In this document: piece after piece, positions 40,916-47,386 of the stretch | Layout of the letters: each line of letters opens with the position of its first letter | Numbering within the stretch: position 1 is the stretch's first letter | NCBI GenBank assembly: GCA_937625935.1 | Contig: OW569349.1 | Span: 1 to 64,000 of the forward strand | Origin: Tetramitus jugosus | Lineage: Eukaryota > Heterolobosea > Eutetramitea > Acrasida > Vahlkampfiidae | Reading direction: 5' to 3' | Length of the DNA: 64,000 nt | Made by a program: the position numbers and the translations under genes | Notes under the pieces: generated by a model | What the model was told of the DNA's origin: nothing | Seen by the model: only the letters and a program-made list of their open reading frames with translations | Databases searched by the model: none

Positions 40916-42970
40916 ATGCAAGCAGCATTGAGACTCGCCAAAATTTCAAGCAGGCAATCAACCGCCGCACCCTCAACAACATCATTCGTACAACGTTCCT
41001 ATGTCGTTGGTAAAATTAGAGCCAAACCAAGAGACGATGAAGCAGAACCCTCACTGATGGAAGAGATTGAAGAGGAAGAAGCAGTACCATCTGAATGGAC
41101 CCGAGCTCACTTTTCTGCAGAACAACTCAATGAGCTTGCTGATGACAGAACCATGGAAATTGAAAAGAGAATGGAAGCTCTGATTCACAGAGATCAAGCA
41201 TATGGTGATGCATATGCTTCAATGAAGAGAGGCACTCACATCACACCAGAAAACATCAAAACTGACATTGCTGATCCTCATGAATTGTTTGATTCACAGT
41301 TTGGAATGGATCGTGATATTCGTCTCGTCGAACGTCATCAATTGTTCAAAATGTCACAAAAGAATGGCTTGCCAGTATTGAAGAACAAGCCACGTTTCCG
41401 CTCTGGCATTCCAACAATGATTGATCCTGTGGGTGAAACATTTGCCAAGTTTAAGAAACAAACAAACTTTTACAACAAAAATCCATACCGATACGCCAAT
41501 GCTGAAAAATTGATTGAGAATAAGGAGTCTAGAGATGAAATGTCTCGCATTATTAAGCAGCAATTGCAGAAACAATCGACAGAGGCTAGATCCAGTGCTG
41601 AACAGTGGTTGGAAGAGGACATGGATATGAGAAATTATTTGTCAAAAGCATCTGTTGCAGAAGCCGCACGTATCGAAGCAATCACCAGTGGAGCTACCGC
41701 CGAGGAAGTAGAGGCAGTAGTCAATTCGTTTACTCAGGAGCGGACCAAATCAACACTGCTCGACAATGACGACTTGGATTCATATTTGGCCTCTCAGGAG
41801 AACGCTGATGAATCAGAAGAAGGAGGAGGCTTCCAAGTCCTTGATTCTCTTACTTTTTGGAATAACAACAAACAATTCAAGGAGAGAAAGTTTGATAATT
41901 TTGATTTGAATTTGCCAGTAGCACCTGAATTGTACTCTCTCACTGCTCCAAGGAACATTACTGAGGGAGAATTAAACAAATTGTATGTCATCAATTCTGG
42001 TGACTACAATACGTTCTTTGGAGAGTTGGGTTTTGGTGGAGAATTGGACAAGGTTTTTGAGAGAGTTGCACAGAGAGCTCTCATGATCAGAGAGCCTGTA
42101 TTGCCTGCTGTTGACTTGCTCACTCGAATGAAGGCCAATAATGGTAAGCGCACAGATTTAAATCAGAGAGGATTCGTTTTTACTGGTATTAGAGGTGGAG
42201 GAAAGACTGCATGTCTCTCAATTGTTGCCCATCATGCATTCAAGAATGACTTTTTGGTGTTTTATATTCCATCTGCTCATCATTGGACTCATGGACCTCA
42301 CTATGTTGAGCCGTCCGTCTTGTTGAAGGGATACTTCGATGTGCCAACACCATCTCTCGCCTTCCTCAGACAGTTCAGCAAAGCCAATTCCAAGATTTTG
42401 AAGAAGATGAAGCTTTCCAAGTCCTTCAATTTACCAGTCGAACTTGGTGAGAAGCAACCAACCAACCTGCAGGAACTGATTCAATTTGGTGTCGTTTCGG
42501 AAGATAACGCATCCATTGCATTTAAGTTATTAATGGACGAGTTGGTTGTCAATAATGATGTCCCAATGGCATTCATTGTTGATGATTACAACTTCTTCAT
42601 GGACACAACTGGCTTCTCTTATGGTAACTTGGCAGAGTTTGACACCAAGATGCCAGAACCTGTTCATGCTACACAGCTCACAATTGTTCGTGGATTGAAT
42701 CGTCTCTTGTTACAAAACAGTCCAAACAAGGTGTTTGTGGCCGCTGCTTCCAACAAGTGGAAACAACAAAACGAAACGAGATTGGAAGACTATCCACTCG
42801 AGGTTCTCAACGTTCCTCGTTATAGTGAGGTCGAGATGGGTACTATGTTGGATTATTACTTCTCCGCATATTATATTGAGGGTGTAGCAGCTCACACGGC
42901 AGAGGATTTGCTGTATTTGACTGGTGCAGTGCCAAGTGCTTTGTTCAATGAACTATCTGTGTACCATTAA
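40916..42970 (+). CDS. DAP3: Mitochondrial ribosomal protein mS29 (DAP3)
   Basis: 684 residues, intronless. An Arg/Ser-rich N-terminus (MQAALRLAKISSRQSTAAP) suggests mitochondrial import. The P-loop is GIRGGGKT near residue 425, followed by IVAHHAF and long segments typical of DAP3: PEVLLLP-like YVEPSVLLKG, FIVDDYNFFMD (Walker B-like), and an end ALFNELSVYH where mammalian DAP3 has a similar tail. It is a GTP-binding protein of the small mitoribosomal subunit. The N-terminal ~270 residues are longer than in animals. Its TAA stop (42968-42970) is part of the TTAA at the left end of the transposon; the coding sequence is otherwise complete. Confidence 0.88.
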   Translation: MQAALRLAKISSRQSTAAPSTTSFVQRSYVVGKIRAKPRDDEAEPSLMEEIEEEEAVPSEWTRAHFSAEQLNELADDRTMEIEKRMEALIHRDQAYGDAYASMKRGTHITPENIKTDIADPHELFDSQFGMDRDIRLVERHQLFKMSQKNGLPVLKNKPRFRSGIPTMIDPVGETFAKFKKQTNFYNKNPYRYANAEKLIENKESRDEMSRIIKQQLQKQSTEARSSAEQWLEEDMDMRNYLSKASVAEAARIEAITSGATAEEVEAVVNSFTQERTKSTLLDNDDLDSYLASQENADESEEGGGFQVLDSLTFWNNNKQFKERKFDNFDLNLPVAPELYSLTAPRNITEGELNKLYVINSGDYNTFFGELGFGGELDKVFERVAQRALMIREPVLPAVDLLTRMKANNGKRTDLNQRGFVFTGIRGGGKTACLSIVAHHAFKNDFLVFYIPSAHHWTHGPHYVEPSVLLKGYFDVPTPSLAFLRQFSKANSKILKKMKLSKSFNLPVELGEKQPTNLQELIQFGVVSEDNASIAFKLLMDELVVNNDVPMAFIVDDYNFFMDTTGFSYGNLAEFDTKMPEPVHATQLTIVRGLNRLLLQNSPNKVFVAAASNKWKQQNETRLEDYPLEVLNVPRYSEVEMGTMLDYYFSAYYIEGVAAHTAEDLLYLTGAVPSALFNELSVYH

Positions 42971-42983
42971 GGTGGCGGTCTAC
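42967..42983 (+). repeat. Left terminal inverted repeat
   Basis: TTAAGGTGGCGGTCTAC; the first four bases are the TTAA target copy and contain the DAP3 stop codon. Directly inside lie two near-copies of CTCCTCGxATAAA (about 42986-42999 and 43006-43019), including an AATAAA at 42994-42999. Confidence 0.9.
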
Positions 42984-43626
42984 CAACTCCTCGAATAAAT
43001 AGGGCTCCTCGTATAAAATGATTTTTGTTTGAGAAAAAAGAAGCAAGATGTGGGTCGATCAAAAAACATCAGAATCCATACACAAGTGTTAATCAGCCAC
43101 AATACTGTGAATTCTCGGTTACAAGCAACACTTTCGTGCTTTGTGATTTCTCTGCGGCGGAGGTTCGGGCTTCTTTATTTGGGCTAGTTGACAGGAACAT
43201 TGAATCTCTCTGGAGAATACAAAAACACACTTGGATGATTAGAGTCATCCACACGTTGTCATTAAACAAGTTCTGAGTCAAAGATGCAATACTTGGTAGA
43301 GTTTCATATTGGAGTCTCCTCCAGTAGATGATTTCGGTTGTTGTGTGTATTGGTTCAGAGGATGGACGATGGACGTTTTCTTTCAAGACGCGAGATTGAA
43401 CCACCCAAGAAGAAATAAAGCATTTGCCAAACGAGTAACGTCATCTTTCTGTTGCCTAAATCTCAGTTTCCTCTAAGCTGCGGAATTGGTGCAGTTGTAA
43501 AAATTTCCGTTGAGACTGTCTTTACAACGGCAACGGCCATCTACCTCGGTTTAAAAAGCGCTGTCTTTTTCGCTGTTTGATTCAACTCACACAACAAACA
43601 CAACACACAACAAATACAATAACATT
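42984..43626. other. 5' part of the transposon upstream of the Fanzor gene
   Basis: About 640 bp with no protein I can support; short frames at 43025-43276 (+) and 43093-43404 (-) overlap and have no domain. It probably holds the Fanzor promoter (TTTAAAAA near 43550 and an ACAACAAACACAACACACAAC leader-like stretch before the ATG). Confidence 0.5.
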
Positions 43627-45430
43627 ATGCCACGAGGTGTGCCTAAGGACGGCAAGAGAAAGAGAAAGAGAGAGACTGTCAAAAAGGATGAATACTCATC
43701 ACATTACGTGGTCAAGGTCGGTCTGAAGTCTCTATTGTTGCATTGTCCAACTCTGTTACCAATCATACAAACTCAAGCTCTGGAGATTACAAGGATTGCT
43801 CTTCGACTCACAAGATTTATAAACATAATTGTTTTGAGGCACTTGGAGAACAATTGTGATATCCCTCTCTTGAATCAAGGATTTATTCAACGAATCGGTT
43901 CAGTGTTGTTTGGACGCAAGTCGAAGACAAGAGACGATAATGTCAACCTCATCAACGGATCAGTCAACATGGATGACGTAAAAATCAAGCTAAGGAAGAT
44001 TTATGAGAAGTTTTCCAAATCCATCAATTACGTTGCCAAGTCTCTCAATGTCAATATTTCTAACATGCTCAAGTTCACATTGGAACAAAGACTGAGAAAG
44101 TATTTGAGAGTGAGGATGAATCAATTGCACTATGATCAATCAATCCCAAGGTCTGAATACAGAAGAGTCATAGAATACATCATCAGAAAGTTGACATTCG
44201 TCACTCCAGTTTATGATTTTGTCAAACTGCCTCCAAAAGAGTTGATAGAGACTATTCCTGTGTTGATCCGAGAGGTTCGAACACTTGTTGGTGCTAAAAC
44301 TGACGAAGTGATTGATGAATCGTTTGTGAACAACAACACCAATAACATGCTGAAGTTTTACTGGCATGCTCAACAGTTTCTGATTGGCAATGGAACGAAA
44401 TCATTTGCATTGTTGCCCTTGTCCCACTTTAAATGTAGATGCATGGAGATTGGTACAACGGACCTGATAGACATGCTCCAACAGAAGAAGAAACCAGGAG
44501 GACAAAAGAAGGGTAATGTACAAGTTATTGAACCCATTGAATTGAAATACAATCTCAAGTGTTTGAATGTTGGAACAAAGAAGATTCAAATCGACTCTAT
44601 CAGAACTGACGGTATTCAGGCCTCTGTTGTTCTCAGACATCAACTCGTTGGCAATCACAAGAACAATAAGGCAAAGGAATCCAAGGGCCAGAAAGAAGCA
44701 AAGAAGAGAAAGAAAGAAACAAGTATGAACGAAGGTGCTGAATATTTGGTTGGGATTGACCCGGGTATTGTTACGTTGGTGAGTTGTGCAGATTCAGATG
44801 GCAAGAAGTGGGAGTTGTCTAACAAAACATATAGACATCTGTCCCACCATTCAAAAAACTCCAAGCGATTGTTGAAATACAAAGCAGAATGGAACGAAAT
44901 GAATGAGAAGAACTTGGATGAACTCCATAACTCAATCAAACAGGCCCGTGTACCAACAAGTGGTCTGTTCCTTGAACACATCAATTCTGTATTGAAAGTC
45001 GAGGATGATTTGTTGAATTTTTATTGCACCCCAAAGGTGAAGAGACTGAATTGGGATAGCTATATAATGAGAGATAAGACGATTGCCAATGTTATGAATG
45101 ACTTTCGAAAGAGAGCAAATGGAAGAAGCATGTTAATTGGGATGGGCAATGCTGGTTTCTCACATGAAGCCAGTCAAGCATAAGAGAATAGACAAGAATG
45201 GAACGTTGAATGTCTCTGTCGTCCGAGGAGTTAAACAGTGTGCAACCACTATATGTTTAGTGACTCACAACAGAGACATCAATGCGGTCAAGAACATGCT
45301 CCATCTACTGAGAACAGAAATGGATGGACAGTCACGTCCCGATGCCTTCAAGAGGAAGAAAAAGGTCGCAAAAGAATTAATCAAAATGGTGGAACACCTC
45401 CAAGGCTCACTCCATCAAGCTGCTATGTAA
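43627..45430 (+). pseudogene. Fanzor (eukaryotic TnpB/IS605 OrfB-like) nuclease, decayed
   Basis: Frame 43627-45183 (518 aa) then 45137-45430 in another frame. A basic N-terminus (KDGKRKRKRETVKKDE, a likely nuclear signal) leads to a helical REC-like part. The Fanzor1-type segment GTKSFALLPLSHFKCRCMEIGTTDLIDML is at about 257-287. RuvC-I is LVGIDPG with Asp378. RuvC-III is NRDINAVKNM (45269-45298), in the second frame. Between them, where relatives have the alternative catalytic Glu and a first CxxC of a zinc finger, this copy runs from MLIGMGNAGFSH almost straight to KHKRIDKNG and CATTIC, so about 40 residues seem deleted and the frame is broken. It is probably nuclease-dead. Fanzors are RNA-guided DNA nucleases; one from Naegleria lovaniensis has been characterised (established knowledge). 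Confidence 0.8.
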
Positions 45431-45502
45431 GTCCCGATTATGTAGGAGCGTTAAGGTGTCTTATCGGGAAACCATAATGTTTTTATTATGGCTTGATCGA
45501 CA
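45431..45502 (+). ncRNA. Candidate Fanzor guide-RNA scaffold at the right end
   Basis: Between the Fanzor stop and the right terminal repeat lie two nested foldable elements: TCCCGAT (45432-45438) with ATCGGGA (45463-45469), and CCATAAT (45472-45478) with ATTATGG (45485-45491) around GTTTTT. In TnpB and Fanzor systems the guide RNA is made from the 3' end of the element, with the guide read from the flank. If so, the guide here would be host DNA from 45520 on. Location and structure are seen; RNA function is inference. Confidence 0.45.
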
Positions 45503-45519
45503 GTAGACCGCCACCTTAA
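45503..45519 (-). repeat. Right terminal inverted repeat
   Basis: GTAGACCGCCACCTTAA, the exact reverse complement of 42967-42983, ending in the second TTAA (45516-45519). Confidence 0.9.
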
Positions 45520-45706
45520 GGGACATCGAATAAAGCGAATCGAAATCAATTTTTATTGTTCCAGGAGTCGACTCTGCTTTTAGTTTGTCACCCAGGTTTT
45601 TCTCGCTCCGGACAAAAATGTCTTGTCGTCAAAAGACACCCGTTGAAGAATATAAACCTCTTCCTTGTTGCTGAGTTGCCTACATTCGACAAAAACACAA
45701 AGAGTC

Positions 45707-45934: not shown

Positions 45935-47386
45935 CCGCGCTTTTTATGGGCAATTTATCCACCCGAGCCAGATCAGAACTCTCTCATCTCAAAATAAAGA
46001 ACTGATTTCTCTGTCACAACGACTTTTCTGCAACAAAATCATGATACTAGCAAGTGGAAGTAACTCAATGGGTCAATGTTCAGCATCAGGTCATAAGACT
46101 GGTGCGAACTCACACTTGTTTCAATATGAGATTGAATCGGAAGTGGACGTCCCTTTCCCCACCAAATCTCTGCGTTCTGTCCACTGTGGAAAACAACATT
46201 CACTGTTCTTAACGAGTAAGTAATATCGTCAATCTCTATTTTGATACTCTTGAGATTAGACATTTTCACACGGGGAGTGTTTAACTGATCCCTCTTAGAA
46301 TGTGGACAGGTTTTTGCTTGTGGGAACAACCGAAATGATCAGTTAGGTTTCGGCGAAGAGATTGACGAAGTATTTGATGCTCAGAGAGTATCAAGCTTAG
46401 AATATTTCAAAGTTTCATCCATCTCCACTTTTTCTTCCTTTTCATTGTTTGTGACAAATGAAGGACAAGTGTATGGAGTTGGTCTCAACGATTCTTTTCA
46501 GTTAGGTCTTTCGAATACGAAGAGAATAGTGAAACCTCAATTAATTCCTTTTACTGTACCATCCCCATCACCAATCTCCAATAATGAAGAAGACGATACA
46601 GTGCCTATCATCCAATGCGCAGCAGGAGAGAACCATTCCTTGTTTCTATCGAGAGATCATCGTGTGTTTGGATGTGGAGACAACGAGCTGGGTCAACTTG
46701 GAATGGGTGATAATTTTGAAGCAGGAGAGGTCATATCTCCTGTTGAACTTTTGTGGTCAACGAGTTGGAAGGAAAGAGGACTGACAGTTGCAGCAAGTTC
46801 AACAGGAGTAAAGCACATTAGTACTGGCGCCCATCACTCGGCAATCATAACGAACGATAATTCTATCCTCGTGAGCGGTAGTAATACCTATGGCCAATGC
46901 GGAGCGGCATGGGACATAAAGTGTGTCACTTCCTTCCATTTGGTCACCACAGTTGACCATGCATTCTTGAAGGGCATTAAAATCTCTTGTGGAAGGAGGC
47001 ATACCCTGGTGTTGGACGAAGATCACAGAGTGTGGGCATTTGGGGACAATTCATTCGGTCAACTAGCGATCGACGAAGAAGAGAAGGGAGTGTGTTATCC
47101 GACAGATATCACAAATAGAATGGAGCATTTAATGGACACAGATGAGATCATAACAGATATAGAAGCAGGATTTAATTACTCCATGTTTATTACATCGAAT
47201 GGTAAGGTTATTGCCTGCGGAAGCAATGCGGAGCACAAACTGGGTGTGCGTGACCAATCCACGGGAGATAACAGTACCAAGATAAGGACCCCACACTTGG
47301 TCTATTCTCTGAAAGAAACTCAAAACAGGATTCATATTGCCTGCGGATTCTTCCACTCCATGTTGTATGAGGTTTCTCCTGAATAA
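45918..47386 (+). CDS. RCC1-repeat protein, two exons
   Basis: Exons 45918-46215 and 46299-47386 (intron 83 nt, GTAAGT...CTCTTAG) give 461 residues in frame; the join restores LFLT-KCGQVFACG. Seven RCC1-type repeats can be seen (ILASGSNSMGQCSASG, VFACGNNRNDQLGFG, VYGVGLNDSFQLGLS, VFGCGDNELGQLGMG, ILVSGSNTYGQCG, VWAFGDNSFGQLAID, VIACGSNAEHKLGV) with HH/HS-x-x-(I/L/F) partners. Complete propeller, no extra domain. It lies just beyond the transposon, about 400 bp from the right end. Specific partner unknown; distinct from the RCC1 protein at 28232. Confidence 0.82.

Follow-up and report, generated by a model that had tools for sequence, protein, structure and literature searches.

The guide of Fanzor and TnpB systems corresponds to the host sequence just past the right end of the element, and the target motif is located upstream of the target (PMC10432273; this and the other papers are cited for those of their passages that bear on such elements). 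Cleavage by Fanzors has been measured 9–21 nt from the motif, depending on the enzyme and the strand; SpuFz1 cuts after nt 16–17 and 20–21, and the target-adjacent motif (TAM) of GtFz1 is TTAAN (PMC10432273). The same passages place no transposase between the repeats of Spu-1, the SpuFz1 element, report no clear transposase association for three other Fanzors, and suggest that Fanzors may act in trans or serve another function. The Fanzor elements of Chlamydomonas are often 5′-truncated, almost all of them are 3′-intact, and they often show duplications of ~7–19 bp (some longer) directly after TTTT-like tetranucleotides; in one related family that lacks a Fanzor, a duplication was found in 1 of 200 elements (PMC3627910). 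Kolobok transposons, which are defined by TTAA and 5′-RR/YY-3′ termini, are known from Naegleria (PMC9587614). Here, the question of what a Fanzor may do for the transposon that carries it in a living eukaryote is addressed with a Fanzor-bearing TTAA transposon of the heterolobosean Tetramitus jugosus. It is inserted at the stop codon of the DAP3/mS29 gene in a stretch of 64,000 nucleotides, hereafter the window (assembly GCA_937625935.1, contig OW569349.1, positions 1 to 64,000, forward strand).

The genomic family of this element comprises two-ended copies between TTAA sites and copies that retain only the right end, some of which carry a short duplication of their right flank. The best explanation overall, held with somewhat better than even confidence, is a TTAA transposon that additionally spreads by Fanzor-driven homing, with the duplications as scars of abortive repair.

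Right-end-only copies and their duplications

The window copy is bounded by a 17-bp terminal repeat (TTAAGGTGGCGGTCTAC). Both of its occurrences are exact, and they are the only matches in the 64 kb with up to three mismatches (100 shuffles average 0.05). The TTAA element with perfect inverted repeats described in the initial annotation is thereby confirmed to its exact ends. In the genome (26.35 Mb in 56 contigs, one assembly), the repeat is matched 39 times with up to two mismatches, against 6 matches of the reversed control, which bears out the proposal that the element belongs to a genomic family. The 39 matches resolve into 12 left and 27 right ends, and the recommended search for repeat pairs 2–5 kb apart returns 12 pairs that span 2.55–4.63 kb end to end. 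A 28th right end (L048), which was added by similarity search and lacks the first 161 bp of a long left end, is outside all counts.

Twelve of the 27 right ends possess a left repeat, two (L013 and L023) were classed by eye as two-ended with a left end that is damaged or diverged, and in 13, no left end was recognized within the 7.5–8.5 kb that were searched to the left. Counted from the right end, these right-end-only copies break off after ~45 bp to 4 kb. L034 and L022 have undergone rearrangement, and the junction was set at 169 bp in the former and at 540 bp in the latter; leftward of the L034 junction, further pieces of the element follow. A repeat-like stretch with four mismatches, 2,744 bp leftward in L018 and outside its 118 bp of element, was not counted as a left end. 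Among the matches listed, there is no left-end-only copy of the main family.

The truncation points of five of the 13 copies (L018, L024, L025, L026, and L032) bear a scar, which consists of a second TTAA and bases matching the right flank of the copy, located beside the truncated side. The match after the TTAA is exact over 12 nt in L026, 11 nt in L025, 9 nt in both L024 and L018, and 8 nt in L032. It reaches 18–20 nt with two mismatches in L018 and 20–22 nt with one gap in L032; with microhomology discounted, it could be 6 nt in L024 and 8 nt in L025. The duplicated part overall measures 6–22 nt, and only two of the five scars reach ~20 nt. In all five copies, the duplication begins at the TTAA and stops at the truncation point, with 6 nt of filler between the two in L026, and at the four other joins, one to three bases are common to the flank and the element. 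When the junctions are compared with the right flanks of other copies (338 pairs), one pair matches over 7 nt, one over 4 nt, and the rest over 0–3 nt, so that none reaches 8 nt. The 60 nt to the left of the two-ended copies harbor no scar in any of the 12. The right-end-only copies with their TTAA+N duplications, which are the most telling feature, are not visible from the window, and the picture that had been drawn from it was incomplete in this respect.

A second TTAA Fanzor group, subfamily B, has different terminal repeats (TTAAGGATGTAGTTCG, 24 pattern matches) and is exemplified by C50:40805-44833 (in L047 and L050). Its Fanzor is a close relative of that of the main family; the 3′ end is nearly the same and diverges in the last ~25 bp. 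Two of its left ends, on C45 and C15, are unpaired in the pattern search. Composite loci on C47 and C52 share flanks and were excluded before counting; these loci, L051 and L052, have in common a subfamily-B-like right end, the upstream sequence, and ~40 bp downstream of the TTAA, which suggests a larger repeat.

The Fanzor, its carrier, and a proposed homing-like mode

Five close sisters of the window copy (L010, L011, L016, L017, and L020; 2.67–2.69 kb) are ~97–99% identical to it and contain an intact Fanzor open reading frame (ORF) of 640–642 aa from the first methionine. The L010 protein harbors PF07282 and matches SpuFz1 (phmmer E 5.1e-14), an Fz1 and the only Fanzor among four PDB matches with E ≤ 10; it may fall in the Fanzor1 clade. 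Its catalytic motifs are kept (D376, E539, D590). The Fanzor motif of Bao and Jurka, D-X(125,275)-[TS][TS]-XX-C4 zinc finger-X(5,50)-RD (PMC3627910), is present in L010 with D376, T542 S543, C546 C549 C578 C583, and R589 D590 (partly counted by hand) and is not found in the window copy. In a set of 5.8 billion proteins, scoring of the best 7,998 candidates yielded five homologs with 60–98% identity. Because dN/dS is 0.09–0.27 in 10 pairs of intact copies (with saturated dS in two pairs, L027 against L010 or L031), the Fanzor of the family is judged to be under purifying selection. The Fanzor gene of L015 contains an interrupting stretch that looks, on visual inspection, like a PP2C phosphatase. 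The longer elements L021, L027, L028, L031, L033, and L047 contain part of VPS35, a retromer gene (PF03635, E 2.4e-44 in L031); one of the 26 VPS35-matching stretches in the genome, C22:83290-83910, sits in a longer frame and may be the donor gene.

The divergence between copies is unevenly distributed. Between L010 and L027, 0.78 of the synonymous sites differ in the first 540 columns and none in the last 78 codons, and identity is 0.96–1.00 over the last ~340 bp. The identity switches at ~260 bp for L010/L031 and at ~1,100 bp for L010/L021 and L010/L047. From these alignments, conversion looks anchored at the right end, and other patches of the copies are mosaic as well. The flanks are also asymmetric. 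The outer base adjoining the left TTAA is A or T in 18 of 18 copies, and the one adjoining the right TTAA in 10 of 18 (p 0.003); when only two-ended copies are taken, the counts are 12 of 12 versus 7 of 12 (p 0.037). The position was chosen after inspecting eight. Such an asymmetry is unexpected from the palindromic target alone and is as a one-sided motif would give.

In all 12 two-ended copies, inverted repeats are present and each outer end is a TTAA, with termini of the form TTAA-GG...CC-TTAA; the copies thus share both the target duplication and the 5′-RR ... YY-3′ termini of Kolobok; the element end sequence is TTAAGGTGGC. The termini of piggyBac start with C (5′-CC). Because of the TTAA duplication and the 5′-GG ... 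CC-3′ termini, the ends, as far as their bases tell, fit Kolobok better than piggyBac. The piggyBac domain (PF13843) is matched 12 times in the genome, and the 3.2–4.0 kb around each match contain no element repeat with up to four mismatches. With 5′-GG termini and no such repeat in the 3.2–4.0 kb around each PF13843 match, piggyBac is rejected as the carrier. Three further ORFs of the longest copy have no transposase match in Pfam, and a search for THAP transposases was uninformative, being silent in its controls too. Two 1.93-kb stretches (L042 and L043, 99.9% identical) with a DDE_Tnp_1_7 match and the ends TTCGGCCAGATTTTACC / GGTAAAATCTGGCCGAA represent a seemingly recent transposon that is separate from the Fanzor family.

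The family, the intact and selected Fanzors, the right-end-only copies, their duplications, and the right-anchored tracts can be joined in one mechanism, for which we infer the RNA, the guide, the cleavage, the motif, and a transposase acting in trans. The element would be non-autonomous with Kolobok-type ends and would be mobilized by the trans-acting transposase, and the two-ended copies would be products of ordinary transposition, in which the 4-bp TTAA is duplicated. The Fanzor nuclease would supply a second, homing-like mode. In this mode, the conserved right end would be transcribed as the guide-RNA scaffold, the host sequence to its right would serve as the guide, and the target motif would be TTAA, probably A/T-TTAA. 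Since the guide would be the right flank and the motif would lie upstream of the target, each copy would be aimed at its own empty site. The empty allele would be cut by the Fanzor ~20 nt inside the target, leaving a left break end of TTAA+N~20. The right break end would match the filled chromosome throughout, so that copying would begin in the right flank, run into the element at its right end, and proceed leftwards. If the copying is aborted, the new strand would be end-joined to the left break, generating a right-end-only copy and a duplicated TTAA+N of up to ~21 nt. Shorter repeats would then reflect trimmed left ends.

Several observations weigh against homing with abortive repair. As the initial annotation had noted for the element, a transposase is not visible: none was recognized by eye in the 12 two-ended copies among ORFs of at least 110 codons, without a search by a Kolobok model. 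Eight of the 13 right-end-only copies are free of a scar. When a wider region is compared locally, L031, a two-ended copy, scores above its control (40 against 26) because of a CT-rich stretch that lies 117 bp from the left side of the element, and the best score of L024 falls elsewhere than at its junction. The right end has no match to an Rfam family, and its folds are not significantly more stable than those of shuffles (z −1.04 to −1.65 in four sequences). Its alignment is too uniform for covariation, and RNA-level constraint could partly be behind the right-end identity. In subfamily B, neither of the two right-only copies examined (C1 and C38) has a scar, and the copy on C12 kept its left end and lost the right one. 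Left truncation as a universal polarity is rejected: among the matches listed, the main family conforms to it (13 copies with the right end only, two 30-bp internal matches on C45 and C14 being left aside), and subfamily B, with its right-truncated C12, does not.

These points would partly suit an ordinary Kolobok- or piggyBac-like element in which the Fanzor is a passenger, the truncations stem from later deletion or from gap repair that failed once a transposase had excised the element, and the duplications stem from staggered breaks. The missing duplications, the truncation of subfamily B on either side, and the TTAA ends with inverted repeats of every two-ended copy all agree with it. Excision, however, leaves TTAA ends and by itself cannot duplicate 6–22 nt beyond the TTAA, the five duplications extend from the TTAA to the truncation point (up to the filler in L026), and both the purifying selection on the Fanzor and the right anchoring of the conversion tracts speak against a passenger, so that this explanation is considered unlikely but worth keeping in mind. 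One-ended or target-primed copying from the 3′ end, either retrotransposon-like or by rolling circle, is less probable still. Its classic sign is the combination of 5′ truncation, an intact 3′ end, and target duplications, and a rolling-circle mode has been proposed by Bao and Jurka for the Chlamydomonas Fanzor elements (PMC3627910). Against it, all 27 right ends finish in the inverted repeat and TTAA with no poly-A or other tail, and the two-ended copies are flanked by TTAA and have inverted ends of the cut-and-paste type, not Helitron ends. Finally, the use of a single assembly leaves room for misjoined repeats as an artefact of assembly or annotation, which is very improbable in view of 27 distinct right flanks, varying truncation points, and a host ORF that ends naturally, namely, that of prolyl-tRNA synthetase (ProRS), which stops at the last position of PF09180.

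The copy at DAP3 and other insertions at stop codons

The features of the window copy and its host gene are collected in Table 1.

Table 1. Features at the DAP3 insertion, in positions of the window.
Feature	Position	Strand	Remarks
Host DAP3/mS29 gene	40916..42970	+	684 aa, ends ...SVYH stop; PF10236, E 1.5e-32
TTAA transposon with Fanzor, non-autonomous, window copy	42967..45519	+	2,553 bp including both TTAA
Left terminal repeat, TTAA + 13 bp	42967..42983	+	exact; DAP3 stop codon (TAA) at bases 2–4 of its TTAA
AATAAA in the left end	42994..42999	+	
Fanzor remnant, first open part	43627..45183	+	aspartate of GIDPG kept; RuvC glutamate and first zinc-finger cysteines gone
Remainder of the Fanzor C terminus, out of frame	45158..45430	+	HNRDINA motif; runs to the original stop
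Conserved non-coding right end	45431..45519	+	89 nt; putative guide-RNA scaffold; fold z −1.4; no Rfam match
Right terminal repeat	45503..45519	-	exact inverse of the left one; ends in the second TTAA, 45516–45519
Host sequence right of the right TTAA (DAP3 3′ flank)	45520..45540	+	putative guide/target of the window copy, after the scars and the guide passages of PMC10432273
AATAAA of the original DAP3 3′ flank	45529..45534	+	2.5 kb from the stop codon since the insertion

The Fanzor ORF of the window copy is reduced to 518 aa by an internal deletion of ~124 bp with its junction near 45157. This deletion takes out the RuvC glutamate together with the first cysteine pair and causes a frameshift, and the 518-aa ORF is without the zinc finger; the window Fanzor is, by its sequence, a dead copy. 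The single Fanzor-like gene of the initial annotation therefore holds up as to its kind, since the sister L010 protein matches SpuFz1 and PF07282, but the gene in the window is broken. None of the ORFs of the window copy itself matches Pfam; the copy is devoid of coding capacity for a working Fanzor and has retained its right end.

All four DAP3 homologs that were found finish at the same terminal histidine, and because of this, the stop of DAP3 is taken to be ancestral and the protein to be unaltered by the insertion, as had been claimed. The insertion is tolerated because the TTAA rebuilds the stop codon. The situation, called striking in the initial annotation, recurs: in 10 of the 27 copies, the stop of a long host ORF lies inside the TTAA of the element. 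The hosts are DAP3, ProRS, GDP-mannose dehydratase, an M16 peptidase, a BTB protein, and a RhoGEF; in L013, L025, L029, and L034, the host ORF is without a domain assignment. The 10 of 27 copies compare with 12 of 333 ordinary TTAA sites (p 3.5e-7), but with TTAA sites outside of long open frames (12 of 86) as the reference, the excess is only 3.6-fold (p 0.011), and stricter masks give 12 of 75 (p 0.025) and 12 of 66 (p 0.050). For the left flank, the stop-codon tests cover 18 copies, those in which the left TTAA is known. Because the excess shrinks in this way, tolerance rather than targeting, through gene density and purifying selection, seems to explain most of the stop-codon insertions. 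As for targeting of stop codons by the element, the counts support no more than a modest excess over gene density. For DAP3, ProRS, GDP-mannose dehydratase, and the others, the TTAA target lets the element live at essential genes of a compact genome.

In the first 60 nt of the 12 two-ended copies, AATAAA occurs in the window copy only, and seven of the other 11 read TATAAATA instead. The left-end AATAAA of the window copy stands where the insertion cost DAP3 its own signal. Of the right ends, 26 of 27 contain AATAAA, which in most cases lies at 28 nt from a converging stop codon. The idea that a poly-A signal at each end is an adaptation of the family is rejected for the left end, where 1 of 12 two-ended copies has AATAAA. 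Downstream of the element, an RCC1-repeat gene is located at 46445–47386.

Relation to described elements

The elements CRe-1,2,3 of Chlamydomonas share with this family the 5′ truncation, the intact 3′ ends, short duplications after the target tetranucleotide, and the link to Fanzor (PMC3627910). In the passages cited, they are read as cases of Helitron one-ended transposition, an explanation that does not suit a carrier with TTAA cut-and-paste-type ends. Because the same pattern is found in a TTAA family with inverted ends and in the Chlamydomonas elements, Fanzor would be the common factor. A wider proposition can be built on this, which is tentative and which we hold at slightly less than even: Fanzor elements may spread in eukaryotes by natural RNA-guided homing that leaves, as its scar, right-end-only copies beside a repeated target motif with up to ~21 nt, the same scar may occur in unrelated carriers (TTAA here, Helitron-like in Chlamydomonas), "one-ended transposition" may be Fanzor-driven abortive repair, and guide, motif, and cut position of an uncharacterized Fanzor may be readable from the genome. 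If true, genomes record Fanzor cleavage and repair, so that TAM, guide start, and cut site become predictable from sequence, and it is explained why the 3′ ends of such elements outnumber the 5′ ends. Among the listed titles and abstract openings of open-access PMC papers, no paper linking the Chlamydomonas pattern to Fanzor-driven repair was found, nor any report of such scars or of a Fanzor in a TTAA element.

Spu-1 of Spizellomyces punctatus, a 2-kb element in many copies, resembles the present one in its inverted ends, its single Fanzor ORF, and the lack of a transposase (PMC10432273, PMC3627910). It differs from the TTAA and 17-bp repeats found here by its 30–33-bp repeats, putative TA duplications, and the TAM CATA, and its Fanzor-less ghost loci, as described in the passages on Spu-1, keep both repeats, whereas the remnants here are mostly right-end-only (PMC10432273). 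Another heterolobosean Fanzor, NlovFz2 of Naegleria lovaniensis, is reported to be an Fz2 with the TAM CCG and seemingly lacks inverted repeats at its locus (PMC10432273); the protein described here matches an Fz1 and resides in a repeat-bounded TTAA family. With Kolobok, including KolobokP and its homing endonuclease, the family shares the TTAA duplication, the 5′-RR/YY-3′ termini, and, as in one Kolobok lineage, an accessory nuclease, with the differences that the nuclease is a Fanzor and not a His-Me finger and that a transposase is not recognized in the copies (PMC9587614). From a bacterial plasmid drive (PMC11870625), the present case differs in its eukaryotic TTAA carrier and in being known from genomic scars and not from activity; as proposed here, the guide from the right flank, the cut at the empty site, and the recopying from the filled copy would be alike in both.

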